Part shown: positions 2,845 to 38,244 of the stretch, in pieces | How the letters are laid out: the number at the start of each line of letters is the position of its first letter | Numbering within the stretch: the first letter of the stretch is position 1 | DNA from: an uncultured Alistipes sp. | Lineage (GTDB): Bacteria; Bacteroidota; Bacteroidia; Bacteroidales; Rikenellaceae | DNA length: 39,482 nt | Reading direction: 5' to 3' | NCBI GenBank assembly: GCA_944321765.1 | Contig: CALUMQ010000038.1 | Coordinates: 1-39,482 of the forward strand | Translations under genes and position numbers: made by a program | Notes under the pieces: generated by a model | Seen by the model: only the letters and a program-made list of their open reading frames with translations | What the model was told of the DNA's origin: nothing | The model's database searches: none

Positions 2845-2845
2845 C

Positions 2846-2884
2846 TGTGTATAAATTTTGGCTTCGGTACACAATTTATACACA
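2846..2884. promoter_or_regulatory. 12-bp inverted repeat directly upstream of the integrase start
   Basis: TGTGTATAAATT at 2846-2857 is matched by its exact reverse complement at 2873-2884, with a 15-bp spacer. The left arm ends one base from the integrase ATG. It could be an operator for integrase autoregulation, or an mRNA hairpin that hides the start codon. Confidence 0.5.
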
Positions 2885-10483: not shown

Positions 10484-10606
10484 ATGACCCGAAACCCCAG
10501 TTGACCTCGGATGAGTGCGCTGCCGGGACCTGACTAACCCTTAAAACCTCTTGAAATGATTTTTTTGTACCCCTTCTCCAAAGGTGTATCTGCCAGACAC
10601 CGGGGA

Positions 10607-22177: not shown

Positions 22178-23368
22178 TTACTTCCCCGAGAGCTCCACAC
22201 GGCTCATGCGTCCGAACATCTCGGCCATGGCAGCCTGCGTGAGAAGCCATTTTTCGCGGTCCTTGTTCTCACCGGTGAAATCCGTCTCGAAGAGTCCATG
22301 TCCGTCCCGGGCGTGCTCCCAGGCGTAGTCCAGGCTGCGCTGCACGTCGTTCAGGATGGCAGCGTTTCCGTCAACGGCATACAGCTCCGCAAGGCCGCGC
22401 ACCATCACGGCCGAGAACCACACGTTGCCTTTGCGGATGATGCGGAACGGCGTACCGCCGTCCGGCGTAAACTCCTCGAAGAAATAATCGTGGCAGGCGG
22501 TTGCCGTGCGCTGAGCATCCTTCAGGTAAGGCTCCTCGCCCGTAGCCTTGTAGAGCAGCACTCCCGACTGCACCATCTGACCGCTGTTGTAGGCGAACTT
22601 CGCACGACCGATCTCCCCCGCGAGGTTCACATTGTCGAAGTAAAGTCCATCCTCCGGATCGAGCAACATCTTTTTAGTCCACGCATAGAGCGCCTTGCCC
22701 TCTTCGAGGTAGTGCGCATCGCCCGTTGCGGCGTAGAGCTTCAGCGCGTAGACGCTGCCCGGAGCATTCGAACAGGTGTTTTTCGAGTGCTTCTTCTGCT
22801 CGCACCAGTAGATGCCGCCGCCCAGCACATCGTCCATACCGCTCTCGATGAATTTCCAGATGCGCTTCGCCTCCTCGAGGTACTTCGCATCGCCGGTCGC
22901 CGCGTAGATGTCGCAGAAGTCGATACCCAGCCAGATGTTGTCATCGTAGAAGCGGTCCGAGGCCGGCGCCGTATTGATGTAGGAGGCATAGGCCACGGGC
23001 ATGCGCGTCGTATCGAGATACTCGGCCAGTCCGGGCAGCACGCGCTCGTCGACAACACGGCGGTACGAGGGATCCGACTCGAGGATGACATTCGCCGCGG
23101 AGAGTGTGCCCGAGAAGGGCCACAGGTAGGAGTAGGGATTCGGCCGGGCCTGCTCCTCGGAGGCGAGATAGCCGGCACGGTAGTCGTCGTTGAACGGATA
23201 GTTCTCACGCAGCAGGAACGAACCCTCGACACCGTAATTGGCATAAAGGGAGTCCATCGTGGTCTTGGCGCGGAGCAGGTTCTCGTTCTCCTGTCCCGAA
23301 GGAGTCGTCTGACAGGCCGCGGATGCCAGTGTCAGGGTAACGAGCGAAGTAAAGACAACTTGTTTCAT
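22178..23368 (-). CDS. GH76 endo-alpha-1,6-mannanase lipoprotein (first gene of the proximal operon)
   Basis: GH76 enzymes cut alpha-1,6-mannan internally with retention. The 396-residue protein has a lipoprotein signal (LASAAC, Cys19) and an (alpha/alpha)6 barrel. The catalytic Asp pair of the family is visible as Asp142-Asp143 in RFYDDNIWLGIDF; other landmarks are GGGIYWCEQKKHSKNTCSN and AYNSGQMVQSGVLLY. It heads the GH76-GH125-DUF4965-DUF1680 operon and is divergent from the HTCS gene. A putative operator lies about 130 bp upstream (23496-23518). PULs with two GH76 enzymes often put one on the surface and one in the periplasm; which this one is cannot be told. Confidence 0.92.
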   Translation of the reverse strand: MKQVVFTSLVTLTLASAACQTTPSGQENENLLRAKTTMDSLYANYGVEGSFLLRENYPFNDDYRAGYLASEEQARPNPYSYLWPFSGTLSAANVILESDPSYRRVVDERVLPGLAEYLDTTRMPVAYASYINTAPASDRFYDDNIWLGIDFCDIYAATGDAKYLEEAKRIWKFIESGMDDVLGGGIYWCEQKKHSKNTCSNAPGSVYALKLYAATGDAHYLEEGKALYAWTKKMLLDPEDGLYFDNVNLAGEIGRAKFAYNSGQMVQSGVLLYKATGEEPYLKDAQRTATACHDYFFEEFTPDGGTPFRIIRKGNVWFSAVMVRGLAELYAVDGNAAILNDVQRSLDYAWEHARDGHGLFETDFTGENKDREKWLLTQAAMAEMFGRMSRVELSGK

Positions 23369-23676
23369 CTTGGGTTTAGTTTTTATGTTTTGGAATCATG
23401 TTCCACTCGGGCGGAATGCCATCCAATCTTGTATGGCGCGTTTTCCGGCGAACAAAAATAACAAACAAACGTCATTCACCAGTCCGTTCACATGTACAAA
23501 TAGTACGTTTCCGCGCCAAAAGCCCCTTCAAAAGTCTTTATATGCATCAAAAAGCCGTGAAAAGAGATTTTAAATCGTTTAACGTACAGGTAGCGTCAGT
23601 TTGAACGTATGATTTTGTGACGTTTTTTTATGATTGTTGGCTCTTTTTTTCTATTATTGTGTCAAAAATCAACACC
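23369..23676. promoter_or_regulatory. Divergent control region between the GH76 operon and the HTCS gene
   Basis: It holds a -7-like box on the minus strand (TATTTTTG, 23460-23453) with no recognisable -33 box, as expected for an activator-dependent promoter. The motif shared with the susC upstream region is at 23496-23518, 35 bp further out. I see no clear consensus promoter for the HTCS gene; a possible -7 is TATTATTG at 23653-23660. Confidence 0.5.
23496..23518 (-). promoter_or_regulatory. Putative PUL operator, copy 1 (GH76 operon)
   Basis: Read towards the operon it contains CGCGGAAACGTAC followed by TATTTGT. It aligns with 37674-37697 upstream of susC at 19 of 24 columns with one gap, same orientation relative to the gene. 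Both copies lie 32-35 bp upstream of an identical TATTTTTG box. Probably the binding site of the HTCS AraC domain. Confidence 0.5.
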
Positions 23677-26600
23677 ATGTATCCGATTCACGCACTGCCC
23701 CGTCTCGCTCGATTCCTCTCTGCAATGAGATTCTCGATACACTTTCTGCCGATCCTTTTGTTGCTTGCCGCGGCAACTCCGGCCGCGGGAAACAACCTGC
23801 GGCAGATCTCCAGCCGCGAAGGGATCTCGAACAACGCCGTGCTCTCGCTCGGACAGGACAAATACGGATTTCTCTGGGTCGGGACCTGCGACGGACTCAA
23901 CATGTGGGACGGAGAGCGGATGCAGCTCTTTCCGAACGCCTGGCAGAAGGAGGAGGGACTCTCGGGCAATCTGATCGAACAGATTGCCATCACGCGCGAT
24001 TCGCTCTTCTGGATCCGTACGAACTACGGTCTCGACCTCTTCGATCCGGGCGAGAAGAGCGTCGAGCGACACCCGCAGTTCCAGGGCATGTACAAGATCG
24101 CCTGCCGCACGAGCCGCGAGGTGCTGGTGCTGACACAGGACCGGCGAGCCTGGAGCTACGACCCGACAGCCCGTGAATTTACGCAGATCGCCTTCCCCCA
24201 TGGCATCAACTACGACAATGCCCTGGCCATGCTATTCGACGAGGCCGGCAACCTCTGGGTCTGCACACCGCGCGAGGTGCACTGCATCGAAATCTCCTTC
24301 GCGCAGAATGGAACCCCCAGTTTCGGAACCTGCCGCACGCTTCACCCCGAAGTTCCCATCCAGTGGGCCTTCTCCGATCAGGACCGGCTCTTCCTGGTGG
24401 ATACGCACCAGACGCTTTTCGAGGTGAAGAGCGCGGATGCTCATTTGGAATATCTTCTGGAGCTCAAGGAGGAGCTCCGCAGGCGCGGGAGCATCTCCAG
24501 CATCATCCGCGACGGTGACGACATTCTGATCTCGTTCTACACCGACGGAGCCATTCGGCTGCGACGCACGCCCCAAACCCGCGAAGGGTATGAGGTGGAG
24601 CCGATTGACATCCGCAGCGGCGTTTTTTCGCTGCTGAAGGACGCCCGGCAGGAGATCGTTTGGATCGGCAGCGACGGTCTGGGACTTTTCCAACAGACGC
24701 GCAACGACGTGGAGTTCAACTCCATCTCCTATGATGATCTGCCCTACGGGCTGTCGAAACCGACCCGGGCATTGATCGTCGACGACGAAGGATCTCTCTG
24801 GATCGGGACCAAGGGCGAAGGAATCCTGCGCATCCGCGACTTCTACCGGCAGCAGGACTATACGCGCCAGAACTCCGAACGGATCACCACGGCGAACAGC
24901 GACCTGCTGGACAATTCGGTCTATGCCTTTGCCCGCAGTCACCGCGACCTGCTGTGGATCGGCAGCGACGGCGACGGACTGAACTACTACTCCTACCGCG
25001 ACCGCGCCATCCACCACATTCCGGCTCCCCAACCCGGAATGCTGAAGTACATTCACGGATTGTACGAATCCGATCCTTCGACGTTGTGGGTGGCCACGGT
25101 GGGCTGCGGCGTCTACCGGGTCGAACTGGCCGGAGACAATGCCCGGCCGCAGATTCGTGCTGTCGAACAGCTCCATTTCAACGACGAGCTGGAGATCAAG
25201 AACTTCTTCTTCACGCTCCAGCCCCAGGGTGATTCGATTCTATGGTTCGGGAATCGCGGAGGAGGTGCCGTGCGCTACGATCTGCGTACGGGCCGCCACA
25301 GGGTATTGAAGTTCGACCACGGACGCAACGCCATTGCCAACGATATCTACGCCATTCACTGCAGCCGTGACGGGCACGTATGGTTCGGGACGAGCGGCGG
25401 ACTCATTCCCCTCGAGCGTGACTCCATGGTCTGCGCCACGAACCGGGCCATCCACGGTATTCTCGAGGACTCCCTGCAGAACCTCTGGCTGAGCACCAAC
25501 CGCGGATTGATCCGCTATACGCCGCAGACGGACAACACGGTGGTCTACGGCTACTCCTACGGACTGCACACGATCGAATACAGCGATGGAGCCTGCTACA
25601 ACGACCCGCACCGCGGCATTCTTTTCTTCGGCGGTACAAACGGTTTCGTCACCGTGCAACAGACCCCCTACCAGGAGGCAGCCTTCATGCCGCCGGTCCG
25701 TTTCCGCGACGTCCGCATGGGTGGAGAAATCTTCAGCGTCGAGAGCCTGCTTTCGCGCAAGGGGGTGCTGACCCTGCGCCACGACCAGCGGATCTTCACG
25801 CTCTCGGTGTCGGCCCTCGACTACATCAACGGCAGCAACTACACCTATTTCAGTCAACTGGCCGGATTCGACGAACAGTGGGTTGCCAATACCGGGCGTT
25901 TCTCGTTCACCGACCTGCCGACCGGGTATCACGAACTCCACGTCCGCTACCACAACAACATCTCGGGTGAGGACAGCCCCGTCTACACGCTTCCGATCCG
26001 CATCCGTCCGGCATGGTATGCCACCACGCTCGCCCGGATTCTCTATGTCGTGGCCGCGCTGCTGGGCATCGGAGGCGTGATCCGCTACTATCTGATGCGC
26101 TACCGACGGCGGCGTGCCGCCCGGCAGCACGAGCTCGAGCTGCGCCGCCGCGAGGAGATCTACGATTCGAAGATGGGTTTCGTGACAAATGTCACACAGG
26201 AGCTCACCGTTCCCCTGACGATGATCTCGGGACCCTGCCAGCAGATCCTCTCCCACCCCGGAACCGACGCCTACGTGCGCCGCTACGCCGAGACGATCCG
26301 TCAGAATGTCATCAAGCTCCATGACCTGATCTACATGCTTCGCGAGTTCCGCGGCAGCGACCACGAAACGGACCGTCCGGAGAACATCGAACTGGTCTCC
26401 ATGTCGGAACTCGGCAACAGCATTGCCGAGACCTTCACCGAATATGCTGCCGGCAACAACATCCGCTGCGAGATCAACATAGAACCCGACCTGGTGTGGC
26501 CTACCGACCGCGACGGCATGTCAATGATTCTCAACACACTGCTGACCAACGCCTTCAAACATACGCCCTACAACGGATCGGTACGGATGACGATTTGCAC

Positions 26601-27798
26601 CGACAATGGAGAACTGCGCATCGTCGTGGCGAACAACAGCGTCGGCGTAAACCTCGAAGATATCGAGGCGATTTTCGACCGTTACCGGATTCTGGACTAT
26701 TTCGAGAAGAAGAGCGAACGGGGTCTGTCGTTCCAGGGAGACCTGCGCCTGGCCATCTGCCACAGCACGGTACAGCGCATGAGCGGCGACATTACGGTCG
26801 AAAGCACCCCCAACGATCTCACGTCATTCACGGTGCACCTTCCGAAACTCGCTCTTTCGAAGGCTTCCGCCGCTCCGGCCCGTGCCGAGGAGCGTCTCTC
26901 TCCCCTGCCGACATTCAACGAATACCGGTTGCCGGCCCGCGAGGAGCCGCGGCGCGAATACCCCTTTGCCAAGAACCGCCCCACGGTATTCATACTCAAC
27001 GACAATGCGGAGATCACGAATTTCGTGGCCGATCTCTACGAACCGAACTACAACATCCGCATTGTCGACAATGCCACGGCAATGAACGAGCTGCTCAAAC
27101 AGGTGCATCCCGACATTGTGATATGCGGAGCCTTCACCTCGCAGTCCGATTCGCTGGAGGCGATCCGTGCGGTCAAGGAGGGAAAACTTACGTCGCACAT
27201 TCCGGTCATTCTGCTCTCTTCTGCCGGACAGATCGAAGAGCGTATCCGCAGTGTTGAATCGGGGGCCGACGTCTGCCTGACGCTGCCGTTCAATGTCGAG
27301 TACCTCAAGGCCGTTACCGAACAGCTGCTCAAACGCACGCAGTCGCTCAAGAGCTACTACACCTCGGCCATGAGCACCTACGAACTGGCCGACGGGAAGA
27401 TGCTGCATCAGGACGACAAGGAGTTCATCGACCGCATGATGCAGATCATCAACGACAACATCTCCAACACGGAGATCTCGACCCGGTTCATTGCCGACGC
27501 GATGGGCATCAGCGTCAGAAACCTGTACCGACGGCTGGAGGGCATTCTCAACCAGACACCGACGCACATCATCAAGGAGTACCGGCTGATGAAGGCCGAG
27601 CAGCTGCTCACCACGACAAAACTCTCGATCGACGAGATCATCTACAAGGCGGGATTTGTCAATCGCGGCACCTTCTTCAAGTGCTTTGCCGCCAAATACG
27701 GATGTACGCCGAAAGTCTACCGCAAACAGAAACTCTCGCAGGTGCAGGAGGAGGTCGAAGCACCGGTCGGGGCATCCGGGTCCGGGACTCAGGCATAG
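23677..27798 (+). CDS. Hybrid two-component (HTCS) PUL regulator lacking phosphotransfer residues
   Basis: In the HTCS family a periplasmic sensor binds an oligosaccharide and signals through kinase and receiver to an AraC DNA-binding domain. From the ATG at 23677 (A-rich upstream; Met at 23725 would give a shorter signal peptide) the protein has 1373 residues: signal (to about 38), Reg_prop beta-propeller repeats (about 40-670), Y_Y_Y domain (about 715-780), one TM helix (about 786-805), kinase core (about 830-1055), receiver (about 1102-1220) and AraC domain (about 1245-1350). The kinase motif reads TNVTQELTVPLT: the acceptor His is Gln841. The ATP lid is degenerate (NNSVGV). The receiver has Gly1151 for the acceptor Asp, Leu1203 for the conserved Lys and Asn1108-Asp1109 for the acidic pair. 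The AraC domain looks intact. It is divergent from one PUL operon and convergent with the other. Confidence 0.9.
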   Translation: MYPIHALPRLARFLSAMRFSIHFLPILLLLAAATPAAGNNLRQISSREGISNNAVLSLGQDKYGFLWVGTCDGLNMWDGERMQLFPNAWQKEEGLSGNLIEQIAITRDSLFWIRTNYGLDLFDPGEKSVERHPQFQGMYKIACRTSREVLVLTQDRRAWSYDPTAREFTQIAFPHGINYDNALAMLFDEAGNLWVCTPREVHCIEISFAQNGTPSFGTCRTLHPEVPIQWAFSDQDRLFLVDTHQTLFEVKSADAHLEYLLELKEELRRRGSISSIIRDGDDILISFYTDGAIRLRRTPQTREGYEVEPIDIRSGVFSLLKDARQEIVWIGSDGLGLFQQTRNDVEFNSISYDDLPYGLSKPTRALIVDDEGSLWIGTKGEGILRIRDFYRQQDYTRQNSERITTANSDLLDNSVYAFARSHRDLLWIGSDGDGLNYYSYRDRAIHHIPAPQPGMLKYIHGLYESDPSTLWVATVGCGVYRVELAGDNARPQIRAVEQLHFNDELEIKNFFFTLQPQGDSILWFGNRGGGAVRYDLRTGRHRVLKFDHGRNAIANDIYAIHCSRDGHVWFGTSGGLIPLERDSMVCATNRAIHGILEDSLQNLWLSTNRGLIRYTPQTDNTVVYGYSYGLHTIEYSDGACYNDPHRGILFFGGTNGFVTVQQTPYQEAAFMPPVRFRDVRMGGEIFSVESLLSRKGVLTLRHDQRIFTLSVSALDYINGSNYTYFSQLAGFDEQWVANTGRFSFTDLPTGYHELHVRYHNNISGEDSPVYTLPIRIRPAWYATTLARILYVVAALLGIGGVIRYYLMRYRRRRAARQHELELRRREEIYDSKMGFVTNVTQELTVPLTMISGPCQQILSHPGTDAYVRRYAETIRQNVIKLHDLIYMLREFRGSDHETDRPENIELVSMSELGNSIAETFTEYAAGNNIRCEINIEPDLVWPTDRDGMSMILNTLLTNAFKHTPYNGSVRMTICTDNGELRIVVANNSVGVNLEDIEAIFDRYRILDYFEKKSERGLSFQGDLRLAICHSTVQRMSGDITVESTPNDLTSFTVHLPKLALSKASAAPARAEERLSPLPTFNEYRLPAREEPRREYPFAKNRPTVFILNDNAEITNFVADLYEPNYNIRIVDNATAMNELLKQVHPDIVICGAFTSQSDSLEAIRAVKEGKLTSHIPVILLSSAGQIEERIRSVESGADVCLTLPFNVEYLKAVTEQLLKRTQSLKSYYTSAMSTYELADGKMLHQDDKEFIDRMMQIINDNISNTEISTRFIADAMGISVRNLYRRLEGILNQTPTHIIKEYRLMKAEQLLTTTKLSIDEIIYKAGFVNRGTFFKCFAAKYGCTPKVYRKQKLSQVQEEVEAPVGASGSGTQA

Positions 27799-27906: not shown

Positions 27907-29118
27907 TCAGTCGATCAGCAGTGCCATGGCCTCGATCATCGTCGAAGCGCTGACCTGCTCATTCAGACGTCCGTCCCACGACGAACCCATCTCGCCCCAG
28001 AAGGCTCCGAAGAACCAGTTCGAGCCCTCCGACTTGTCAACGCCCTCGGTCCAGCAGACCAGGCCGTTGTAGATCAGGAACTGCTCGATCTCCTGGCGCA
28101 GCGTGGCATCGGCCGCATCGACCGAGGCATCCTTCCAGAGGTTCATCGCATAGCGTACGAAGATGCCCTTGAAGAGGGCGTTGTCGCCCGAACCTTCGTT
28201 GTTGAGCACACCGTCGGTCACCAGCGAGTTCATCGTGTAGCGTGCGGCACGGGCGGCGGCCGTCAGGTACATCGTGTCGCCCGTCGCCTTGAAGAGCTCG
28301 TGAGCTCCGCCCATGAAGGTTCCCTGGTTGTAGGTCAGGGCACCGCCGTTGATCGTTCCGTTGGACATGTTGTCTGCCACGGCGCCCGTCAGCGGATTGT
28401 AGAGCGTCGAGCTGAGCCAGTTATAGATCTTCTTCGCATCGGCCAGGTAGCCCTCCTTGGCCGTCTCGTCGGTGGTGTTGGCCCACAGACGCATGGCGCA
28501 CAGAATGGCCGGACCGTTCGAGCAGGCGTTCTTGCTGTTCGAGGCGTCGAGGCTCCAGCGGATACCGCCGCCGTTCTCGTCGTCCGTCCAACGCGTGATC
28601 ACCGTTTCGGCATAGGTCGCGGCAGCGGCGTCGAGGTACTTCTGAACGCCCGTTGCCTCGTACATGCGGATCAGCGTCAGAATGATCCACTCCGAGTCAT
28701 CGGTATAGGCATTGCCGAATCCGTAGCTCCCCATGTAGGGGTTCGAATAGTTGTTGCCCTTGTTATCGTACCACTTCGACATGTAGTCGGCATAGGTCTC
28801 ACGGCGTGCATCCCCCTCGGGCAGACGCAGGTAGGCATCCACAAGCACGTCCATGGCGTGAGCCTGCGGCCAGTAGCAGTAGGTCGACTCGCCCGTGCGG
28901 TCCTGATCCGTGTACCAGAAGGTGCCGCGGTTGGTATCCATGAAGTGCTCGATGAGCTTCTCGTCGACCTGATCGGCAGCTGCCGTCCAGTCGATGTCGT
29001 AGGCCGGCTTGATCTGCTCGGCGGGATCAACGACCTGCTCACCGTAGTATTTGTCATCCACCCCGCAGGCGCACAGCAGTGTCGCTGCGGAGGTAAGTGC
29101 CAAGATGTATTTTTTCAT
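27907..29118 (-). CDS. GH76 alpha-1,6-mannanase lipoprotein (last gene of the SusC/D operon)
   Basis: The 403-residue protein has a lipoprotein signal (LLCAC, Cys18) followed by GVDDKYYGEQ, an acidic stretch consistent with surface export. The GH76 catalytic pair is Asp140-Asp141 in AYTDDSEWIILTLIRMY; GGGIRWSLDASNSKNACSNG and TYNQGTFMGGAHELF are other family landmarks. It differs clearly from the GH76 at 22178-23368, so the two are probably specialised. Its place directly after SusC, SusD and the SusE-like genes suggests it is the surface endo-mannanase that makes the first cuts before import. That location is inference. Confidence 0.9.
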   Translation of the reverse strand: MKKYILALTSAATLLCACGVDDKYYGEQVVDPAEQIKPAYDIDWTAAADQVDEKLIEHFMDTNRGTFWYTDQDRTGESTYCYWPQAHAMDVLVDAYLRLPEGDARRETYADYMSKWYDNKGNNYSNPYMGSYGFGNAYTDDSEWIILTLIRMYEATGVQKYLDAAAATYAETVITRWTDDENGGGIRWSLDASNSKNACSNGPAILCAMRLWANTTDETAKEGYLADAKKIYNWLSSTLYNPLTGAVADNMSNGTINGGALTYNQGTFMGGAHELFKATGDTMYLTAAARAARYTMNSLVTDGVLNNEGSGDNALFKGIFVRYAMNLWKDASVDAADATLRQEIEQFLIYNGLVCWTEGVDKSEGSNWFFGAFWGEMGSSWDGRLNEQVSASTMIEAMALLID

Positions 29119-29191: not shown

Positions 29192-31348
29192 TTAAAAGAT
29201 CGTCTGATCGGTGACGTAGGTGTAATAGTTCTCGACGTCGCTGCTCATGTTGAGCTTTACGGAGATCGTGTTCTGCGTACCGCGGTACGATCCCGGGAAC
29301 TTGAAGTAGTAGGACCATTCGTCGCCGGGCTCCTCCATCAGATAGACGAAGAAGTTGCTGTTGCCCTCCTCCGAGAAGGAAGCGGGATCGGCGGGAGCAT
29401 AGTCGGCCTGTTTGTTGCCCAGACGCATCTCGACACCGTCGAAGCTCATGTAGAGGTAGTAGCGGGTGTCGTTGCCGCCGTTGGTGGCCGAGAAGTTGTT
29501 CTTGCCCCAGACGCCGTCACCCTGATAAGGCAGGTCGACGACATGGCCGCTCATCTTGAAATCGTACTTCACGTCGGTGATCTTCTCGAAGAGCGACGTG
29601 CCGGCAGCGAAGTCCAGCGTGATGCGGTAGATGGCCTCCTCGGTGGAGGTGTTGCCGCCGGTGGTCTCGCTGATCGTGCCGCCGCTTACGGCAAAGTGGC
29701 GTGCGTCGGACTCCTGCGAATCGGTGATGTAGTAGGTTCCGGAGGTCAGCTTGGTGTAGATCTCGAACTTCCCGGCTCCCAACGACTTGAGTGCCTTGAA
29801 TCCCGATCCGTATTCTGAGGCCTCACCCGAGATGTAGGCCGTCGTCGGAATACCCTTCAGACGGGTGATCGTCAGTTTGCGGCCCTCGGAGAGCGCCGTT
29901 GTTCCGAGCAGCGAGCTCTCGACGGCCCAATAGATGTCTCCGGTGGCTTCGGCGGGAATGCCTGCCGACTCGGCGATCTGCTCCAGCTGCAGGTGGGTCA
30001 TGTCGACCGAACCGCTCACACCGGTGCTTACGCGGCTCACCTCGGAGCTCAAGGCGGCATCGGAGAAGAATACCAGCGAATAGGTCGTCAGCTGTACGGC
30101 GGGCGACGATCCCGAGAGAGGCTCCCAGGAGAAGGTTACCTTCGCACCGGCCTGGGCATTCAGCTCGACAGCAGCGTCGGCTGCCGGGGTGAGCAGCGTG
30201 CTCACGGCCTCGGCCGAAGCCTCGAACCCGAGGTCGAACGAGTGGTAGTAGTTCTCCGCATCGGGCGACATGTGCAGCAGGATGCTGGTCTCAAGGCCCT
30301 TGAGCTGACCGTAGAACTTCCAGATACGTGCGTAGTCGTTCGGATTGCCCAGATTGTCGACATCGGTGTGGACATATACATTGAAGTAGCTGCCGCCCTC
30401 GATCTGCCCGGGATCCGAAGCGTCCGTGCCGCTCTGCGAACCCCAGATCTCATACTCGCCGCCAACGACGGCACGGAAACGGTAACGGTCATCTCCGGAG
30501 GTCGGCACGCTGAAGTTATCGACGCGCCAGAGGCCGTTGGCTACATACTGGAGCGTGGCCATCGGCGTACCGTCGTAGCGCGTGCCGGCACGCAGCAGGG
30601 CGACGTCGGTAATCAGCGCCTTGTCGACCGTCAGCGTGTTGAAGTCCACGACGATGCGATAGATGCCTTCGCCCTCGTCCGTAGCATCGGCGCCTTCGGT
30701 CAGAGCGCCCTCTTCCGTGGCACCGAACGTACGCTTGTTGCCCTGCTCGTTGCGGTTGATGAAGCTGTAGGTGCCCGACAGACGCGTGTAGATCTCGAAA
30801 CGTCCGTCACCCAGGTTGCGCATCTCCTGAGCAGCAGCGGGATCGGTTCCGAACTCGGAGCCCTCTCCCGTGATGTAGAGACGGTAGGGAACCTCAATGT
30901 CGTTGTAACGCTTTACGTAGAGGCTGTGCGGCTCTGCCGCGGAGAGTTTCTCGGCATTGCCCAGTCCGGCGCATACCGTCCAGAGAAGTTTGCCCGAGGT
31001 ACCAACGGCAATGCCGGCCTCTCCGGCAATGGCGTTCAGCGTGCTGTGCGGCATGTCCAGCGTGGCGCGCTGTCCGTTGTTGTCGGCCAGGTAGCGGCCG
31101 ACCTCCTCGCCCTCGGCGTTCATGAAGACCACGGTGTATACGGGTGTCCCGACTTCGGATACCTCCCATTCGAAATAGAGGCTGGCATCGGCCTGGTCGA
31201 TCAGATCGAGCGAGTAGCCGTCCGACGGGTAGAGCAGCGTCTCCACGGCGCTGAACCCGGTGTCATCGTATTCCGTATGCTGGGTGCAGGCGCTCAGGGC
31301 AAGAGCGGCAAGCAGCAGAACGGCCAATTTATTGATGATAGCTTTCAT
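29192..31348 (-). CDS. SusE/SusF-like surface glycan-binding lipoprotein with two tandem modules
   Basis: The 718-residue lipoprotein (LALSAC, Cys21, then TQHTEYDD) contains the same roughly 340-residue module twice (about 25-370 and 375-718). Each module opens with a SusE-type Ig domain (LLYPSDGYSLDL and LLTPAADAAVEL), has a middle domain with YITGEGSEFG and YISGEASEYG, and closes with HMSPDAENYYHSF and NMSSDVENYYTYV. The upstream gene 31426-32577 encodes one such module. SusE-type proteins bind polysaccharide at the surface and help feed SusC/D; two modules would add binding sites. It is 77 bp downstream of the one-module gene. The ligand is presumably mannan. Confidence 0.85.
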   Translation of the reverse strand: MKAIINKLAVLLLAALALSACTQHTEYDDTGFSAVETLLYPSDGYSLDLIDQADASLYFEWEVSEVGTPVYTVVFMNAEGEEVGRYLADNNGQRATLDMPHSTLNAIAGEAGIAVGTSGKLLWTVCAGLGNAEKLSAAEPHSLYVKRYNDIEVPYRLYITGEGSEFGTDPAAAQEMRNLGDGRFEIYTRLSGTYSFINRNEQGNKRTFGATEEGALTEGADATDEGEGIYRIVVDFNTLTVDKALITDVALLRAGTRYDGTPMATLQYVANGLWRVDNFSVPTSGDDRYRFRAVVGGEYEIWGSQSGTDASDPGQIEGGSYFNVYVHTDVDNLGNPNDYARIWKFYGQLKGLETSILLHMSPDAENYYHSFDLGFEASAEAVSTLLTPAADAAVELNAQAGAKVTFSWEPLSGSSPAVQLTTYSLVFFSDAALSSEVSRVSTGVSGSVDMTHLQLEQIAESAGIPAEATGDIYWAVESSLLGTTALSEGRKLTITRLKGIPTTAYISGEASEYGSGFKALKSLGAGKFEIYTKLTSGTYYITDSQESDARHFAVSGGTISETTGGNTSTEEAIYRITLDFAAGTSLFEKITDVKYDFKMSGHVVDLPYQGDGVWGKNNFSATNGGNDTRYYLYMSFDGVEMRLGNKQADYAPADPASFSEEGNSNFFVYLMEEPGDEWSYYFKFPGSYRGTQNTISVKLNMSSDVENYYTYVTDQTIF

Positions 31349-31425: not shown

Positions 31426-32577
31426 TTATTCAATATAAGTTACCGTATGATAATAGTAATCACGCGTATGATCCATGTGCACTTCGATCGTTACGACCTT
31501 CGTGGCGCTCCAGAGATCGGTGATCCACTTGAAGGTGTATCCCCACCATCCGTCGGCGGTGATGTCCTTGTTCATGTAGATCCGCCACCAGTCGGGGGCG
31601 CTGCCGCTCGTCGGCGCGTCGTTGTTGTTGTAGTTGACGCTCGACCACTTTTCCTGATAGGTCGTGTCGCCGCTCAGCGTGGCGAGGAATCCGTAACGGT
31701 TGTCGCCGTCGGTGGTCGTGTGCTTCTCCAGCAGCCAGACGCCCAGGCCCTGATAGGTGAGTTCGACGGCTCCGGCAACATCGTCGCGCTGGTACATGAC
31801 GAGCTTCGTCACACGCTCGACGATCGTCGCACGGGTGTTGAAGTCGACATAGATACGGTAGATGCCGCTCTCGTCGACGCTGGCCGCCTGCGTAGCGGGT
31901 TTCACGTCGGCGCCGAACTCGCGCAGCTCGCCCTCCTCGATCGAGAAGCGACGTCCCGAGCCCGAGGTGTTCTCGCACATCTCGTAAGTGGCTCCGGCCT
32001 CCAGGTAGCCGATCACGGTGAACTCGCCGCCATCGGCACCGGTCATCTGGAACTGCATGGCGCTCGCCAGGTCGGTTCCCGTCTCGGTAGCCTCACCGGT
32101 CAGATAGAGCGTTTCGGGAATTACGTCGAAACCGAAGAGACGTTTGACGGACAGACAGCGCGGCGTCGCCTCGACGGGAGCCTCGGTCACTCCGCGGCTC
32201 GAAACGACCGACCAGTACATGTCGCCCGACTCCCCGGCCTCGATGCCGGCAGCCTTGGCCGCCAGATTGAGATCCTTATGGGCAAAGGAGGCCGTCGTCG
32301 ACGATCCGGCATCGAGACGGTAGACGATCTCACCGCCGGGTTCGCTGAAGAAGACCACCTCGTAGTGAGGAAGCTGTCCGTCCTCGGCCAGAGCGGGTTC
32401 CCATGAGAACTCCACCGTAGCCGTCGAGGCGCTCAGCAGCTCCACGTAATAGTTGTCGGCGGGTGCCAGCAGTCCCTTCACGGGCGACACCCCTCCGGGT
32501 TCGTAGGTCAGGTCGTTGGAGCAGGATGCGCCTGCCAGGGCGAGCCCGGCCATCAATATATTCAGTACTTTTTTCAT
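31426..32577 (-). CDS. SusE-like surface glycan-binding lipoprotein, one module
   Basis: From the ATG at 32577 the protein has 383 residues, with a lipoprotein signal (LAGASC, Cys19, then SNDLTYEPGG). It has one SusE-type Ig domain (about 30-130, LLAPADNYYVEL) and one C-terminal part ending in VTIEVHMDHTRDYYYHTVTY, corresponding to a single module of the two-module protein encoded next. A longer frame (to 32673) only adds 32 Arg/Ser-rich residues before the signal. It lies 22 bp after the SusD stop, the normal susE position. It most likely binds the PUL glycan at the cell surface. Confidence 0.85.
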   Translation of the reverse strand: MKKVLNILMAGLALAGASCSNDLTYEPGGVSPVKGLLAPADNYYVELLSASTATVEFSWEPALAEDGQLPHYEVVFFSEPGGEIVYRLDAGSSTTASFAHKDLNLAAKAAGIEAGESGDMYWSVVSSRGVTEAPVEATPRCLSVKRLFGFDVIPETLYLTGEATETGTDLASAMQFQMTGADGGEFTVIGYLEAGATYEMCENTSGSGRRFSIEEGELREFGADVKPATQAASVDESGIYRIYVDFNTRATIVERVTKLVMYQRDDVAGAVELTYQGLGVWLLEKHTTTDGDNRYGFLATLSGDTTYQEKWSSVNYNNNDAPTSGSAPDWWRIYMNKDITADGWWGYTFKWITDLWSATKVVTIEVHMDHTRDYYYHTVTYIE

Positions 32578-32599
32578 GACGTTCGATGATCTTGTTCGA

Positions 32600-34252
32600 T
32601 TAATATCCCGAGTTGTTGGGGAGCAGCGACGGTACGAGCTGCGTCTCGGAGAGCGGCAGCGACCAGAGCACATCGCGGTTATCGTTGAACGAGTATTCGT
32701 CGATCTGACGTCCGTTGCCCAGCTCCTTGGCTCCGTAGACGGCGCCGTTGAGCAGGTCGCTCACGCCCTGTGATTTCGTATCCTTGTAGTTGATCCACCG
32801 GATGAGGTCGAAGTAGCGAAGTCCCTCGAGGGCCAGCTCGACGCGGCGCTCGCTGCGCACGATGTCGGTGTAGTCACCCGACGTGGGGAATTCGAGACCC
32901 TGGCCGATGATGCCGGCGCGCTGACGGATCGGGCGGATCGTCTCGTTCCAGACACTCTCGTCCATCTCGCCCAGATAGGCCTTTGCCTCGGCGTACATCA
33001 GCAGCACGTCGGCGTAGCGCATCATGATGATGTTGGTCCACATCTCCAGGTTCAGACCGTGGTCCGTATCGAAATACTTGCGCGTGTAGAATCCCGTGGG
33101 CGAGCCGTTGGCCGTGCCGGCCGCGTCGGTGCCCGACGTCACGTTGATCGTGCCCTTCGAAACGTAGTTGCCCGAAGCATCGCGATCCTTCCAGTCATAG
33201 CCGTTGTAGACCACCGTTGCCGCAAGGCGCGGATCGCGGCCCGTGTAGACCGTCGGATCGGCCGGCACCGTACCGTCGATATTGAGGTAGCTGTCGACCA
33301 GCGTACGCGTGGGGGCCTTCTGGCAGAGGTTGGCGCCCATCGTCAGCGGCACCATCGAATAGAGCGTCGACCACTGCTTGTCGAGTTCGATGGCCGCGTA
33401 GTCGAGGATCACCTCGCTGTTGTACTCGGCAGCCGACGTGAAGAGGTATTCGTAGGCCGAAATGCCGTCGTCGGTACCCTCGGTCAGCAGGCTGTAGGTT
33501 CCGTAGACACCCTGCTGGTGCATGAGTTTGTCGCAGATATCGGCCACCTTGCGCATGTTGTCGGCGACGGAGTTGCCCGTGCGCTGCACATTCTCGTAGA
33601 GGTACATGCGGGCCTTGAGCACCATGGCCGCAGCCTTCGTGATACGGCCGTTGTCGGCAGCCGTCAGCTCGTCGCGGCTCGGCAGATCATCGAGAATGTC
33701 GTCGATCTCCTGATGGAGCGTCTCCATGACCGTCTTGTAGGAGGTGCGGGTCATCTGGCGCGACTCCTCGAGCGAGATGTCCTGCAGGAAGAAGGGAATG
33801 TCCCCGTAGAAGTTGGTCAGACGGAAGTAGAGCCATGCGCGGATGAAGCGGATCTGCGCCTTCATCGACGTGAGCTCCTCGGCGCTGATGCCCGGGACGT
33901 CGTCGACGAACTTCATGAAGATGTTGCAGGTCTTGATACCCTGGAAGATCCACGACCACTCACTCTGGAAGATGGCCGTGTTGGGCGTAGCCTGTCCCGT
34001 GCGGATGGTTCGCGTGTCGGGATTTCCGCGCTGCTCGTAGAGGTTGTCGCTCAGCGCCTCGTCGGTCCAGATCTTGTCGTGCGAGAACATCTGGTTGTAT
34101 GCCATGTTGAGCACCAGATTCGCGCGGTCGGGCGTGGTCCAGAATGCCTTGTCGGTGTACTTGTTCGTAGGCTCCTGATCCAGCGAGTTGCAACTTCCGA
34201 GCAGCAGAACCGTGCAGGCAAGGATCGTAGTGTGTTTCAGTATCGCTTTCAT
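32600..34252 (-). CDS. SusD/RagB-family nutrient-binding lipoprotein
   Basis: SusD-like proteins form the lid of a SusC barrel and bind glycan at the cell surface. The 550-residue protein has a lipoprotein signal (LLLGSC, Cys21), the family N-terminus (NSLDQEPTNKYTDKAFW), the TPR-like helices (about 100-250, with RFIRAWLYFRLTNFYGDIPF) and the C-terminal SusD signature (MRYADVLLMYAEAKAYLG, then RSERRVELALEGLRYFDLIRW). It lies 14 bp after the SusC stop codon and is co-transcribed with it. Confidence 0.96.
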   Translation of the reverse strand: MKAILKHTTILACTVLLLGSCNSLDQEPTNKYTDKAFWTTPDRANLVLNMAYNQMFSHDKIWTDEALSDNLYEQRGNPDTRTIRTGQATPNTAIFQSEWSWIFQGIKTCNIFMKFVDDVPGISAEELTSMKAQIRFIRAWLYFRLTNFYGDIPFFLQDISLEESRQMTRTSYKTVMETLHQEIDDILDDLPSRDELTAADNGRITKAAAMVLKARMYLYENVQRTGNSVADNMRKVADICDKLMHQQGVYGTYSLLTEGTDDGISAYEYLFTSAAEYNSEVILDYAAIELDKQWSTLYSMVPLTMGANLCQKAPTRTLVDSYLNIDGTVPADPTVYTGRDPRLAATVVYNGYDWKDRDASGNYVSKGTINVTSGTDAAGTANGSPTGFYTRKYFDTDHGLNLEMWTNIIMMRYADVLLMYAEAKAYLGEMDESVWNETIRPIRQRAGIIGQGLEFPTSGDYTDIVRSERRVELALEGLRYFDLIRWINYKDTKSQGVSDLLNGAVYGAKELGNGRQIDEYSFNDNRDVLWSLPLSETQLVPSLLPNNSGY

Positions 34253-34266
34253 GTTTCGGTCGTTAA

Positions 34267-37200
34267 TTAAAATGTGACATCCAGGCCCACGCCGTAGTAC
34301 CGCAGATTCGGGTAGTTACGCGCCGAGTTGGCACCTCCGGCATTCATGTTCGAACCGAACTCCGAGGACTCGGGATCGACGAACGTGCACTTGCTGAAGG
34401 TGAGCAGGTTCTGGGCATTGACGTAGATCTTGAACTTCGAGACGCCGAATTTCTTCGAGATGCGCGAAGGAAGCGTATAGCCCAGCTGGATATTTTTCAG
34501 ACGCATGTAGCTTCCGTCGAACATGTAGATGTCCGAGCCCATGCGGTAGTTGTTCTGGTTCGAAGGATCGGAGATGTCGGTCAGACGCGGCCAGCGGGCA
34601 TCGGTGTTCGTCGGGGTCCAGAAGTCGAGCTGATGCTCGTACATCGTGTAGCCGTAGTTCGAGTGGAACGGCTCGACGAGCTCACCGCGGATCATCATGT
34701 CACGCTTGAGCACACCCTGCAGGAATACCGAAAGATCGAAGCCCTTCCAGGCGACGTTGTAGGTGAAGCCGAACGAGTAGCGCGGGAAGGCGTTTCCGAG
34801 GTAGAAGCGGTCGTTCTCGTCGATCACGCCGTCGCCGTTGCGGTCCACGAACTTCAAGTCGCCGGGCTGCACGGTCTTGCCGACAGGGATGGCCGAGTTG
34901 GCGATCTCCTCGTAGCTCTGGAAGAATCCGTCGGTCTTGTATCCGTAGTAGGAGTTGAACGGAAGACCCTCGCGCGTGATGCGCCAGAACTCCTCCTGGC
35001 TGGAGATGGTCTCGAAACCTTCATACTTGAGCACCTCGTTCCACGAATCACCGATATTGAACTGGAAGTTGTGCATCCAGTCCTGCTTCTGCAGCGTGTA
35101 GTTGATGGTCAACTCCCAACCCTGCGTGCGCATCTCTCCGGCGTTGTAGTTCTGGAGCGTGGTTCCCAGCATGGCCGGGGTCTTCGGCGTCACCAGAATA
35201 TCGGTGGTGTGCTTGTTGAAGTAGTCGAATCCGAGGTTCAGCGAACCCTTGAAAAACGAAGCGTCGAAACCGATGTTGAAGGTCTTCGACACCTCCCAGC
35301 GCAGGTTGTCGGTACCGAGCTGGAAGCCGGCGCCGCCGACAGCCGAGTTGTTGAAGGCGTAGGTGTTCGCATAAACGTTGTAGGTGGTGAAATACTGGTA
35401 GTCGCCTACCGACTGGTTACCCAGCGTACCGTACGAACCGCGGATCTTCAGATCGCCGACATTGTCGCGGTAGCTCTCCATGAAGGGCTCCTCCGAGAGA
35501 CGCCAGCCGAGCGACACCGAGGGGAAGAAACCCCAGCGGAGGTCGGAGCGGAACTTCGACGATCCGTCGTAACGGAACGAGAACTCGGCGTAATAGCGGT
35601 CCGCATAGTCGTAGGAGGCACGTCCGAAGATCGACGTAAGGCTGGTGCGCGTGGTGTTCTCGGGGGTTACGGACGACGAGCCCAGCACAACCTCCGTACC
35701 GTCACCCTTGATACCGAGGTCATCGGCCCACTTCAGGCTGATCTGGTTCGATTCCGAGGTATAGGACTCGTTCGAGGCACCAAGCAGGGCGCTGACATGG
35801 TGCTTGCCGAAGGTGCGGTCGTAGTCGAGCATCAACTGCGAGTTGATCAGATAGGCCTGCTGGTTCCAGTCCTCCGACTTGTCATCGTTGTTGGCCGAAC
35901 GTCCGTCACCGATCGGGTTGCCCTGGGCATCGGTGTTGTAGAAGATCACTTCATAGGTGCGCGTATAGCGGTGGTTGGCGAAGACATCGGCACCCAGCAC
36001 GCCGCGCAGCTTCAGACCGTCGATGAGTTTCACCTCGGCCGAGAGGTTGGCATTCACATAGTCGTTGCGGTATTTGTTCCATCCTCCCTCCTTGAGAAGA
36101 CCCAGGGAGTTGAAGTCCGTCAGCTTGTCGTTGAGCAGGTACTTGCCCGTGGCGGGGTCGTACTGACGGTAATAATAATAGGTCGGAATACGCGAAGCAT
36201 TGGCGATGGCGTTTCCGTCGATCGTCGTCTTGCTGTTGTCGTGCGCATACGAAAGCAGCGCCGTCACCTTCAGTCGCTTGTACTCGGTGGTGATGTTCGT
36301 ACGGAAGTTGTAACGCTGACGTCCGTAGTTGGGACCGACGTAGTTGCTCTCCTGGTCGAAGTACCCGGCCGAAATCATGTAGGTCGTGCTTTCGCCGCCG
36401 CCCGAGAGGCTGACGTTGTAATTCTGCTGAAGAGCCGTCTTGAAGATCTCATCCATGAAATAGGTGCCGTTTCCGTGCGCCTTCAGGTCGCGGATCTGCT
36501 CGGCCGTGAACTCGGGAGCGAGGCCCGAATTGGCCTTGGCGATGTTGAGCAGCGTGGCGTTCTGCCATCCCTCGACCGGCGTGTAGAGCACCTCGGGATC
36601 CTGAACGCCGACCATGGCCGAGAGCTGAACCGTCGGAGCCTGGTTCTTCTTACCCTTCTTGGTGGTCACGAGCAGGACGCCATTGGCGGCACGCGAACCG
36701 TAGATGGCTGCCGTACCGGCATCCTTCAGCACGGAAACCGACTCGATATCCGACGGATTGAGCTTGTTGAAGCTCGAGTTGTCCGACACCAGACCGTCGA
36801 TAACGATCAGCGGCTCGTTGTTGTTCATCGTACCGATACCGCGGATGTTGATGTTGAGCTGGTTGTCGGCGGGGTCGTTGCTGCGCTGCTGGATCACCAG
36901 GCTCGGGGAGGTACCCTGCAGGGCCTGCGTAAGGTTGGCCACCGAACGTTCGGAGAGCACCTCCGACTTGACCTGATCGACGGCACCCACGGCACGCCGG
37001 CGTGTCGTTGTACCGTAACCGATCACGATCACCTCGTCGACCAGCTGCGTATCCTCCTTGAGTGTGACGTTGATCATCGTACGGTTGGCGACAGGGAACT
37101 TCTGCGTCGCGTAGCCGATGAACGAGAAGCTGAGTTCGGCGTCCGGAGGACACGAAAGTTCATATTCGCCGTTCAGATTGGTCGAGGCGCCCGTGGAAGT

Positions 37201-37389
37201 GCCCTCGACGAGGACCGTAACGCCGGGCAGCGGATTGCCCGCGGCATCCTTCACGACGCCCCGGACCGTCACCTTGGAAGCCTGTTCCAGAGCACTGACA
37301 TTCTGGTTCTCAGCCGAATATCCCAACATCGGGGGGGGGAGAATCAGCCACAGAACCGCTACAATGACCTGATACTTGAATTTAGTCAT
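34267..37389 (-). CDS. SusC/RagA-family TonB-dependent glycan importer
   Basis: SusC proteins are outer-membrane TonB-dependent transporters for oligosaccharides, paired with SusD. The 1040-residue protein has a signal peptide (about 1-24), a carboxypeptidase-regulatory-like domain (about 42-118, VRGVVKDAAGNPLPGVTV), the SusC motif VDEVIVIGYGTTTRRRAVGA leading into the plug (to about 245), and a barrel ending in Phe (GLDVTF). It opens the distal PUL operon and precedes susD by 14 bp. Codons 17-20 of the signal peptide contain nine consecutive C residues (37331-37339 on the plus strand, as G), giving Pro-Pro-Pro inside the hydrophobic core, which is odd for a signal peptide. Slippage there would frameshift the whole protein. 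Confidence 0.95.
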   Translation of the reverse strand: MTKFKYQVIVAVLWLILPPPMLGYSAENQNVSALEQASKVTVRGVVKDAAGNPLPGVTVLVEGTSTGASTNLNGEYELSCPPDAELSFSFIGYATQKFPVANRTMINVTLKEDTQLVDEVIVIGYGTTTRRRAVGAVDQVKSEVLSERSVANLTQALQGTSPSLVIQQRSNDPADNQLNINIRGIGTMNNNEPLIVIDGLVSDNSSFNKLNPSDIESVSVLKDAGTAAIYGSRAANGVLLVTTKKGKKNQAPTVQLSAMVGVQDPEVLYTPVEGWQNATLLNIAKANSGLAPEFTAEQIRDLKAHGNGTYFMDEIFKTALQQNYNVSLSGGGESTTYMISAGYFDQESNYVGPNYGRQRYNFRTNITTEYKRLKVTALLSYAHDNSKTTIDGNAIANASRIPTYYYYRQYDPATGKYLLNDKLTDFNSLGLLKEGGWNKYRNDYVNANLSAEVKLIDGLKLRGVLGADVFANHRYTRTYEVIFYNTDAQGNPIGDGRSANNDDKSEDWNQQAYLINSQLMLDYDRTFGKHHVSALLGASNESYTSESNQISLKWADDLGIKGDGTEVVLGSSSVTPENTTRTSLTSIFGRASYDYADRYYAEFSFRYDGSSKFRSDLRWGFFPSVSLGWRLSEEPFMESYRDNVGDLKIRGSYGTLGNQSVGDYQYFTTYNVYANTYAFNNSAVGGAGFQLGTDNLRWEVSKTFNIGFDASFFKGSLNLGFDYFNKHTTDILVTPKTPAMLGTTLQNYNAGEMRTQGWELTINYTLQKQDWMHNFQFNIGDSWNEVLKYEGFETISSQEEFWRITREGLPFNSYYGYKTDGFFQSYEEIANSAIPVGKTVQPGDLKFVDRNGDGVIDENDRFYLGNAFPRYSFGFTYNVAWKGFDLSVFLQGVLKRDMMIRGELVEPFHSNYGYTMYEHQLDFWTPTNTDARWPRLTDISDPSNQNNYRMGSDIYMFDGSYMRLKNIQLGYTLPSRISKKFGVSKFKIYVNAQNLLTFSKCTFVDPESSEFGSNMNAGGANSARNYPNLRYYGVGLDVTF
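37331..37339 (-). repeat. 9-bp poly-C tract in the SusC signal-peptide codons
   Basis: Nine C residues in a row on the coding strand, about 50 bp after the start codon. Homopolymer C/G tracts of this length near the 5' end of surface-protein genes are common slipped-strand phase-variation sites in bacteria; an assembly or base-calling error is the alternative. Confidence 0.6.
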
Positions 37390-37591: not shown

Positions 37592-37621
37592 CAAAGGTAT
37601 GCAATTACAAGAAGCCTCAAA
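37592..37621 (-). promoter_or_regulatory. Bacteroides-type promoter for the susC operon
   Basis: On the minus strand TTTG (37621-37618), 18 bp, and TACCTTTG (37599-37592) match both consensus boxes. The predicted leader is nearly 200 nt. A second -7-like box, TATTTTTG, lies upstream at 37641-37634 without a -33 element and is better placed relative to the putative operator. Confidence 0.55.
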
Positions 37622-37673
37622 AAATTCGCGGCGCAAAAATATGAAAAAGTACACGATCTGACACTACTTTGGC

Positions 37674-37697
37674 ACAAATTTGTATGTTTTCGCGACA
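37674..37697 (-). promoter_or_regulatory. Putative PUL operator, copy 2 (susC operon)
   Basis: Read towards susC it contains CGCGAAAACATAC followed by AAATTTGT. It is the partner of the site at 23496-23518 and lies 32 bp upstream of the TATTTTTG box at 37641-37634. An internal perfect palindrome ACAAATTTGT forms its proximal end. Confidence 0.5.
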
Positions 37698-38244
37698 CAA
37701 AAAAGGCTGTACAAAGGCATTTAACAGACAATTGGATGCAAAATCGTGCCGTCGCGAGCACAAAATCAGACAGTATTCTCAGCGAAAAATATATCTACAC
37801 AACCCCTTACAAATATGTAATTGACGGGCAATCCCAACAACCTTTCTCCATAGTGCCTTGCGGTGCAGCAGCGATCGACAATCCGGAATGCGGAGAGACT
37901 GCTGAAGGCCGACGAAACAACCGCCGGCGCCCCGATTTTCGCGTCTCTTAATACGACACGACTACCCCTCCACCCGGTCTGCTGATACGAGTGTACATGG
38001 CAGGAAGAGACTTCGATACCAAGGTGATTGCAGGTACCCCCTACCCCTCCCCTGCAGCATCAAAAGCCACGAACGGATTCTAGGGCTCATTTTCCGCAAT
38101 GTTATCAATCGCACCCGGAACTCCTGAAAGGATCGTTCCTGCACCTTTTCAAGAAGGATACTGCTGTAAGGGAGGGCTGATGGCGCCGCAACCAAGACTC
38201 GTGTAGAAACACACAAGACAAGCCGCGGAAGGTCCCCATAAGGA

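Follow-up and report, generated by a model that had tools for sequence, protein, structure and literature searches.

The window analysed here is a 39,482-nucleotide stretch from an uncultured Alistipes sp. (GenBank assembly GCA_944321765.1, contig CALUMQ010000038.1, positions 1 to 39,482, forward strand). Its gene at positions 23677 to 27798 encodes a regulator built like a Bacteroidales hybrid two-component system (HTCS), in which the phospho-accepting residues of both the kinase and the receiver are replaced. Most members of a well-supported clade have lost the same residues, and purifying selection on the regulator is well supported. We consider it probable (about 0.6) that an HTCS of a GH76 alpha-mannan locus gave rise, by remodelling, to a regulator that spans the membrane and acts without phosphotransfer. 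The source genome (2.31 Mb, 40 contigs) is 88.6% complete, and its four nearest named relatives are Alistipes metagenome assemblies.

Regulator gene and domain layout

The regulator and its parts, all on the plus strand, were placed as follows.

23677..27798 (+): phosphotransfer-dead HTCS-type regulator, 1373 amino acids (translation, Pfam)
23776..26016 (+): periplasmic sensor with Reg_prop propeller repeats and Y_Y_Y (Pfam; sensor ends placed by eye)
25819-26004 (+): Y_Y_Y domain within the sensor (Pfam)
26032..26094 (+): hydrophobic stretch, probably transmembrane, amino acids about 786-806 (judged from the translation)
26173..26349 (+): HisKA/DHp domain with His to Gln at CAG 26197-26199 and the His+4 Thr to Val (Pfam below cut-off, alignments)
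26506..26847 (+): HATPase_c domain with the N-box Asn retained, G1 Gly988 to Ser and G2 GLG to DLR (Pfam, alignments)
26986..27312 (+): pseudo-receiver with Asp to Gly at 27127-27129, Lys to Leu at 27283-27285, the acidic pair as Asn-Asp and the switch Tyr to Cys (Pfam, alignments)
27193..27204 (+): retained SHIP motif, which in HTCSs forms the receiver half of the contact with the DNA-binding domain (alignment with 12aw; motif from PMC11253607, excerpts)
27490..27729 (+): AraC-type DNA-binding domain, HTH_18 (Pfam)

The reading frame was uninterrupted across its 1373 codons, as the original prediction stated. Translation more likely begins at ATG 23725 (Met17) than at 23677, because the orthologue in L107 begins near Met17. 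Reg_prop (PF07494), Y_Y_Y (PF07495), HATPase_c, Response_reg and HTH_18 all scored over their Pfam cut-offs, in agreement with the earlier claim that the sensor and AraC domains look normal; HisKA scored under its cut-off (21.2 vs 26.9 bits). The sensor matched PDB 4a2l and 3v9f by sequence. No NCBIfam family among the 25 of 113 listed exceeded its cut-off for the regulator.

The protein has the periplasmic propeller and Y_Y_Y sensor of an HTCS and a receiver fold followed by a C-terminal AraC-type domain, and a polysaccharide utilization locus (SusC, SusD, two SusE, two GH76) adjoins its gene. The features of an HTCS that it does not have are the phospho-accepting His of HisKA (Q841 instead, in a domain match below cut-off) and the receiver Asp, Lys and acidic pair (G1151, L1203 and N1108-D1109 instead). 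It thus falls under the published definitions, as given in excerpts of PMC12632262, of a pseudo-receiver (a PF00072 receiver without key residues) and of a pseudo-histidine kinase (at least one function, such as the phosphosite, missing), since its His is absent and its G2 box altered.

Substitutions at the phosphorelay sites

The original prediction held that the kinase His had become Gln, the receiver Asp Gly, the receiver Lys Leu and the acidic pair Asn-Asp. Direct reading of the codons gave CAG at 26197-26199 (Q841), GGA at 27127-27129 (G1151) and CTG at 27283-27285 (L1203). Alignment with HTCSs from other genomes placed Q841 in the H-box column ('TNVTQELTVPLTM' vs 'TNIAHEFCTPLTL'), G1151 and L1203 in the receiver Asp and Lys columns, and N1108-D1109 at the acidic pair, which bears out all four substitutions. 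A His or Asp at a shifted position was the finding on which the prediction could have failed; neither a displaced residue nor a gap was seen across the aligned H-box and receiver stretches. Further changes were V845 at the His+4 Thr site, a Thr that we take to be the phosphatase residue, and C1200 at the switch Tyr site of the receiver.

The description of NNSVG as a degenerate ATP lid has to be revised. The motif is the G1 box, and its first Asn was also present in 28 of the 59 non-clade rows bearing a letter there, active-type sisters included. This Asn is therefore no lesion alone, and only Gly988 to Ser is new in G1. The change of the G2 box from GLG to DLR at residues 1022-1024 is, as judged from the alignments, the stronger kinase lesion. 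The N-box Asn was retained in the window regulator and in 17 of 19 clade rows. A survey reported HisKA domains without the His at 0.9% (722/76,471) and receivers without the Asp at 2.0% (3,111/152,269) (PMC12632262, excerpts).

A clade of relatives sharing the substitutions

Relatives were searched in 180 genomes of the genus (E <= 1e-95) and in 393 genomes drawn from the order (E <= 1e-100). The best match lay in the clade of the window regulator in at least 16 of the 180 genus genomes and, besides the window's own genome, in at least 3 of the 393 order genomes; these counts are lower bounds, as two or three candidates were scored per genome and matches with a locus only were counted. A tree of 81 HTCSs picked for similarity to the window placed the regulator in a clade of 19 HTCSs with support 1.0, and a second tree (30 rows, mixture model) gave support 100 for the 18 clade rows included. 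The clade members fall under three family codes (f1, f9, f24); two rows (L060, L084) are truncated by contig ends, and L062 and L063 are about 99% identical.

The kinase His was lost in 17 of the 19 members, where the site holds Gln (14), Arg (2) or Thr (1), and kept in two. Among the 18 clade receivers, the Asp was lost in 16 (Glu 10, Gly 3, Thr 1, Ala 1, Asn 1; Asp 2), the Lys was Leu in all 18, and the switch Tyr was Cys in nine and Val in nine. Loss at both ends of the phosphorelay, claimed in the prediction for the window protein, was seen in 16 of the 18 members having a receiver. Four further near-clade assemblies (L051-L054) also have the H-box Gln, the near clade being the part of the clade to which the window regulator belongs. 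Outside the clade (62 rows), the His was kept in 60 of 62 rows, and the Asp in 61 of 61 and the Lys in 57 of 61 of the rows with a letter; the sister rows L080-L083 retain the His, Asp, Lys, acidic pair and Tyr. The substitutions are shared by most of a well-supported clade of 19 and are no chance mutation. The comparison with orthologues that the prediction had proposed thus came out in its favor.

All 10 rows with Glu at the Asp site belong to clade B (L024, L025, L026, L061-L065, L079) or are L057. One clade member, L066 (from L115, G072:C3), is spread over two frames, possibly as a pseudogene or through an assembly error; its His site holds Thr and its Asp site Asn. In L115, this split member adjoins a gene 94% identical to the NqrF-like gene at the right end of the window.

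Order of loss

Two rows placed inside the clade, L058 and L059, keep the His and Asp and yet carry Lys to Leu, Asn-Asp at the acidic pair, Tyr to Cys and the lost G2 box. This pattern suggests that the receiver Lys, the switch Tyr and the ATP-binding box were lost first, and the His and Asp later; after the early losses, the His and Asp would have been useless. Four changes were counted at the His, a count compatible with repeated loss or regain, and the His and Asp perhaps changed more than once.

A single shared loss of the His was considered and rejected: the approximately unbiased test did not accept the 16 His-less rows as one group without L058 and L059 (p 0.015), in a quick 30-row tree with the trait columns included, L062 absent, L066 on a long branch and the group defined after the first tree.

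Selection on the regulator

The ratio of nonsynonymous to synonymous change (omega) was calculated per domain by the Nei-Gojobori method in pair comparisons. The window regulator and L056, 84% identical over the compared residues, gave an omega of 0.156 for the sensor, 0.153 for DHp, 0.092 for HATPase, 0.094 for the receiver and 0.022 for the DNA-binding domain (amino acids 1245-1353), with 0.141 overall. Overall omega within clade B was 0.10-0.21. These values make purifying selection on the regulator, dead domains included, well supported. The prediction had argued for long-standing selection rather than recent decay, which is supported by lesions that recur through a clade under three family codes, an intact frame and an omega well below 1 in every domain.

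Mean identity among the active-type sisters was 0.68 for DHp, 0.58 for HATPase, 0.65 for the receiver and 0.48 for the sensor. Between the near clade and these sisters it was 0.43, 0.40, 0.33 and 0.37, respectively, and within the near clade 0.68, 0.74, 0.69 and 0.64. Among the sisters the kinase and receiver domains are thus more conserved than the sensor; they diverged at the transition, where this lead is mostly gone, and were then better kept than the sensor within the near clade.

The GH76 locus

The genes around the regulator include the following, all on the minus strand.

22178..23368 (-): GH76 family glycosidase gene, divergent from the regulator (Pfam PF03663)
27907..29118 (-): second GH76 family glycosidase gene (Pfam PF03663)
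29192-31348 and 31426-32673 (-): two SusE-like proteins (Pfam PF14292)
32600..34252 (-): SusD-like protein (Pfam PF07980)
34267..37389 (-): SusC-like TonB-linked transporter (NCBIfam TIGR04056 over cut-off)

GH76 is an alpha-mannanase family (PMC4321491; PMC9213526; both in excerpts). The GH76 genes flank the regulator on both sides, and by its gene content the locus is of the alpha-mannan type. A SusC at least about 50% identical to that of the window was found in 10 of 15 clade flanks and a GH76 at 72-76% in two more, both ending at contig ends, giving 12 of 15 with SusC or GH76. Among five active-type flanks, SusC at 56-60% was present in three, GH76 at 54% in one and neither in one. Given these similar contents, the phosphorelay-dead regulators and their active-type sisters occupy the same kind of locus.

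Candidate regulatory DNA elements

Four DNA elements were picked out upstream of the regulator and of susC.

23607..23619 (+): GTATGATTTTGTG, candidate regulatory element upstream of the regulator, common to relatives (pattern search)
23498..23507 (-): CGTACTATTT, second shared upstream element, a lead only (pattern search, no shuffle control)
37660..37699 (-): 40-bp block upstream of susC, candidate operator (alignment with L133)
37592-37599: TACCTTTG box, downstream of the 40-bp block (present in the window and L133)

Upstream regions were available for 14 of the 19 clade rows, six of them close relatives. The pattern GTAYGNTTTTRTG occurred exactly in 9 of these 14 regions and with at most one mismatch in 12, the misses being L109 and L112; it was found in none of four active-type sisters, and the whole window holds one exact copy. 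Shuffled regions produced an exact copy in no more than 0.5% of trials and a copy with one mismatch in 0.5-3%. Allowing one mismatch, the element CGTACTATTT was present in 13 of the 14 clade regions and absent from all four active-type sisters, a count made with no shuffle control. As the patterns derive from the same data and six regions are closely related, both elements are leads rather than tests.

Upstream of susC, the 40-bp block was identical in L133 amid diverged surrounding DNA. The TACCTTTG box resembles a -7 element. A direct-repeat search covered 16 such regions, of which 14 were distinct and one (L116) had a misplaced susC start; the active-type L125 stood out, its score being reached in 2 of 100 shuffles. 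In clade B, a 21-bp period could be made out by eye. Scanning with a single clade-B sequence as the pattern, which clade-B rows match by construction, gave p values of 0.015 for the window (opposite strand), 0.045 for L134, 0.155 for L133, <0.005 for L136, 0.425 for L135 and 0.165-0.42 for three active-type regions, and is not relied on.

Proposed mechanism and alternative explanations

In most HTCSs, an S/CHIP-DK contact, released on phosphorylation, is believed to let the receiver restrain the DNA-binding domain, and BT4124 variants altered at the receiver contact bind DNA without phosphorylation (PMC11253607, excerpts). According to Gao et al., the tethering of kinase to DNA-binding domain forces HTCSs to restrain the latter until phosphorylation (PMC11253607, excerpts). 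In the alignment of the window regulator with the solved structure 12aw, D1247 (27415-27417) of this contact was kept and the K1286 position was Arg (27532-27534). Foldseek matches of the regulator were histidine kinase folds, DivL structures among them, which indicates that the fold is kept and nothing more. The AlphaFold model of the whole cytoplasmic part had a pLDDT of 68, with 81-91 in the HATPase part.

The original prediction proposed signalling by conformation only. Since the chemistry is lost at both ends and yet the family is kept intact, mostly next to yeast-type mannan genes, we likewise infer that signalling is probably by shape change alone. A mannan oligosaccharide would bind the periplasmic propeller, as homology and the neighborhood suggest, and the dimer's DHp helix bundle would move in response, carrying the signal across the membrane. 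This movement would stand in for the ATP-His-Asp chemistry, of which the protein is incapable by its sequence; it would alter the grip of pseudo-kinase and pseudo-receiver on the AraC domains, acting through the retained SHIP motif and its putative D-R contact. The paired AraC domains would then bind sites in the susC and GH76/regulator promoters, where DNA blocks are conserved, and set the transcription of the locus.

Several observations weigh against this mechanism, and its ligand-dependent switching is a prediction. Clade B has VKIP in place of S/CHIP, and the switch Tyr is missing from all 18 clade receivers, so release cannot use the usual receiver allostery path. Modelled together by AlphaFold, the receiver and DNA-binding domain gave a poor result (mean pLDDT 56), and neither this model nor that of the whole cytoplasmic part fixed the contact geometry. 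Omega was higher in other near-clade pairs, at 0.303 (window/L052), 0.325 (L056/L052) and 0.389 (window/L057) overall, and reached 0.60 for DHp in L056/L052; the higher overall values are probably inflated, because their dS (synonymous divergence) of 0.65-0.90 is hardly above the 0.73 of the closest pair and so underestimated. In clade B, HATPase was the loosest of the five domains in four of the five pairs run (omega 0.17-0.35) and had the lowest mean identity (0.63, vs 0.73 for the sensor), and the renewed HATPase constraint therefore holds for the near clade only. Control omegas from the active-type pairs of L080-L083 gave no usable value owing to saturated dS. As to the locus, L113, L114 and L115 showed none of this kind within the stretch examined, save a 28% SusC in L115, and L110 and L111 had SusC and no GH76 match within the stretch examined. 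The DNA elements were detected in the same data that suggested them, and the 16-5-16 repeat of the Bacteroides thetaiotaomicron mannan HTCSs was not significant upstream of the window susC (45/100 shuffles reached the score).

The foremost alternative, which we regard as unlikely, is a constitutive DNA binder whose AraC domains are always binding-competent, so that the protein would be a standing activator or repressor with the sensor at most a tether. Asp to Glu mimics phosphorylation in some regulators, and the receiver Asp is Glu in 10 of the 18 clade rows; in clade B and L057 this change, rather than being drift, possibly fixes an active-like state. Where the contact motif deviates, an HTCS may be able to bind DNA unphosphorylated, BT2391 represses its locus, and the mannan HTCSs BT2628, BT3302 and BT3786 of B. 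thetaiotaomicron are among those with deviating predicted arrangements (PMC11253607, excerpts). However, constraint on the sensor of the window regulator is close to that on the entire protein (omega 0.16 vs 0.14, window/L056), and SHIP, the receiver half of the inhibitory contact, is kept.

More doubtful still is a partner- or ligand-dependent module, in which another protein reads the pseudo-kinase or a second signal binds the altered ATP pocket or the pseudo-receiver. A HATPase omega of 0.09 (window/L056) and an N-box Asn kept in 17 of 19 rows despite altered G boxes would suit such a module, as would the DivL structures among the fold matches and the existence of ligand- or partner-binding pseudo-receivers (PMC12632262, excerpts). 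However, identity between the window regulator and the two active-type HTCSs of its own genome is only about 23%, which makes mixed dimers with them unlikely.

Residual phosphorylation, at another residue or by another kinase, is a very improbable driver of the switch. L058 and L059 do keep the His and Asp, and a receiver that retains the Asp may still be phosphorylated after substitution at the acidic pair (DD), T or K, with GlnR modified at other residues (PMC12632262, excerpts); the window regulator, however, has lost His, Asp and Lys together, and 16 of 18 clade receivers have lost the Asp. A decaying pseudogene or an assembly error, of which the relative L066 in G072, divided between two frames, could be an example, is the least likely reading for the window regulator in view of its 1373 uninterrupted codons, the recurrence of the H-box Gln in four further assemblies and an omega of 0.14 overall and 0.02 in the DNA-binding domain.

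Other regulators in the genome and other genes in the window

Three of the five propeller-type regulators found in the genome are without a complete phosphorelay: that of the window, C37 and C26. G000:C37 (L127:1506-6197, minus strand) is HTCS-type with propeller, Y_Y_Y and AraC domain, lies outside the clade of the window regulator in the 81-HTCS tree, and has a counterpart in G065 (L132:1072-5439). Neither showed a HisKA or HATPase match at E 0.1, and the receiver match was absent in C37 and weak in L132; in this pair the receiver Asp is kept and the Lys is Leu or Met. G000:C26 (L128:1459-5193, plus strand) had no HATPase match, and its His is Arg (VARGIQTP) and its receiver Asp is Asn. The remaining two, L130 and L131, have HE, Asp and Lys.

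We tentatively suggest, at somewhat less than even odds, that phosphorelay loss is a route from HTCSs to a new regulator class, whereby Bacteroidales repeatedly keep the scaffold and discard the chemistry, the tethered dimer making conformational coupling sufficient. If this is true, the mannan-locus clade under three family codes, C37 and C26 would be examples.

Elsewhere in the window, a large protein with glutaminase A six-hairpin, DUF5127 and DUF4964 domains (17993-20479, minus strand; 87% identical in L107) adjoins the mannan-type locus. A calpain-family (Peptidase_C2) protein with a weak F5/8 type C match (10556-12601, plus strand) adjoins a large outer-membrane barrel protein (6943-10248). 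Near the left end, a tyrosine recombinase with phage-integrase, SAM-like and arm-binding domains (1624-2883, minus strand) hints at a mobile element.

Comparison with known systems

The HTCSs BT4124 and BT4663 likewise join propeller/Y_Y_Y, HisKA, HATPase_c, receiver and AraC domains in one chain beside SusC/SusD, with the SHIP motif; in contrast to them, the window protein is without the phospho-His, phospho-Asp, receiver Lys and G2 box. The alpha-mannan HTCSs (HTCS_Man) BT2628, BT3302 and BT3786 are assigned to alpha-mannan loci (PMC3878776, excerpts), and the window regulator also lies beside an alpha-mannan-type locus. Their predicted operator consists of two 16-bp direct repeats with a 5-bp spacer, an arrangement not significant upstream of the window susC; the comparison was made on locus type and operator.

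Membrane one-component regulators of the ToxR/CadC type have a cytoplasmic N-terminal winged helix, one transmembrane segment and a periplasmic C-terminal sensor. They couple periplasmic sensing to DNA binding without phosphotransfer, as proposed for the window regulator, which has another fold (AraC-type) and the opposite domain order; no common ancestry is implied. The pseudo-receivers RitR, FruA and others (PMC12632262, excerpts) and the pseudo-histidine kinase DivL are two-component folds without working phosphosites, as in the window. In those systems, as we understand them, one half or a separate protein lost its site, whereas here both halves of one sensor-to-DNA chain are affected.

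The closest precedent is BT4236 of B. thetaiotaomicron, which also has Gln at the kinase His site and for which a phosphorylation-independent mechanism was suggested; its contact motif, compared by published description only, is CSIP-EK rather than SHIP-DR (PMC11253607, excerpts). The His to Gln half of the finding is thus already known. New are the loss at both ends, conserved across a clade and mostly at GH76 loci, and the incomplete phosphorelay in three of the five propeller-type regulators of the genome; no description of an HTCS clade lacking both phosphorelay ends was found among the matches listed in the open-licence literature. A clade without phosphosites, next to the type of locus that its active-type sisters also adjoin, amounts to a natural experiment on the need for phosphotransfer in the HTCS architecture. 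Sensor, AraC domain and adjacent locus, as putative input, output and target, are co-located in it, and active relatives are available for comparison.

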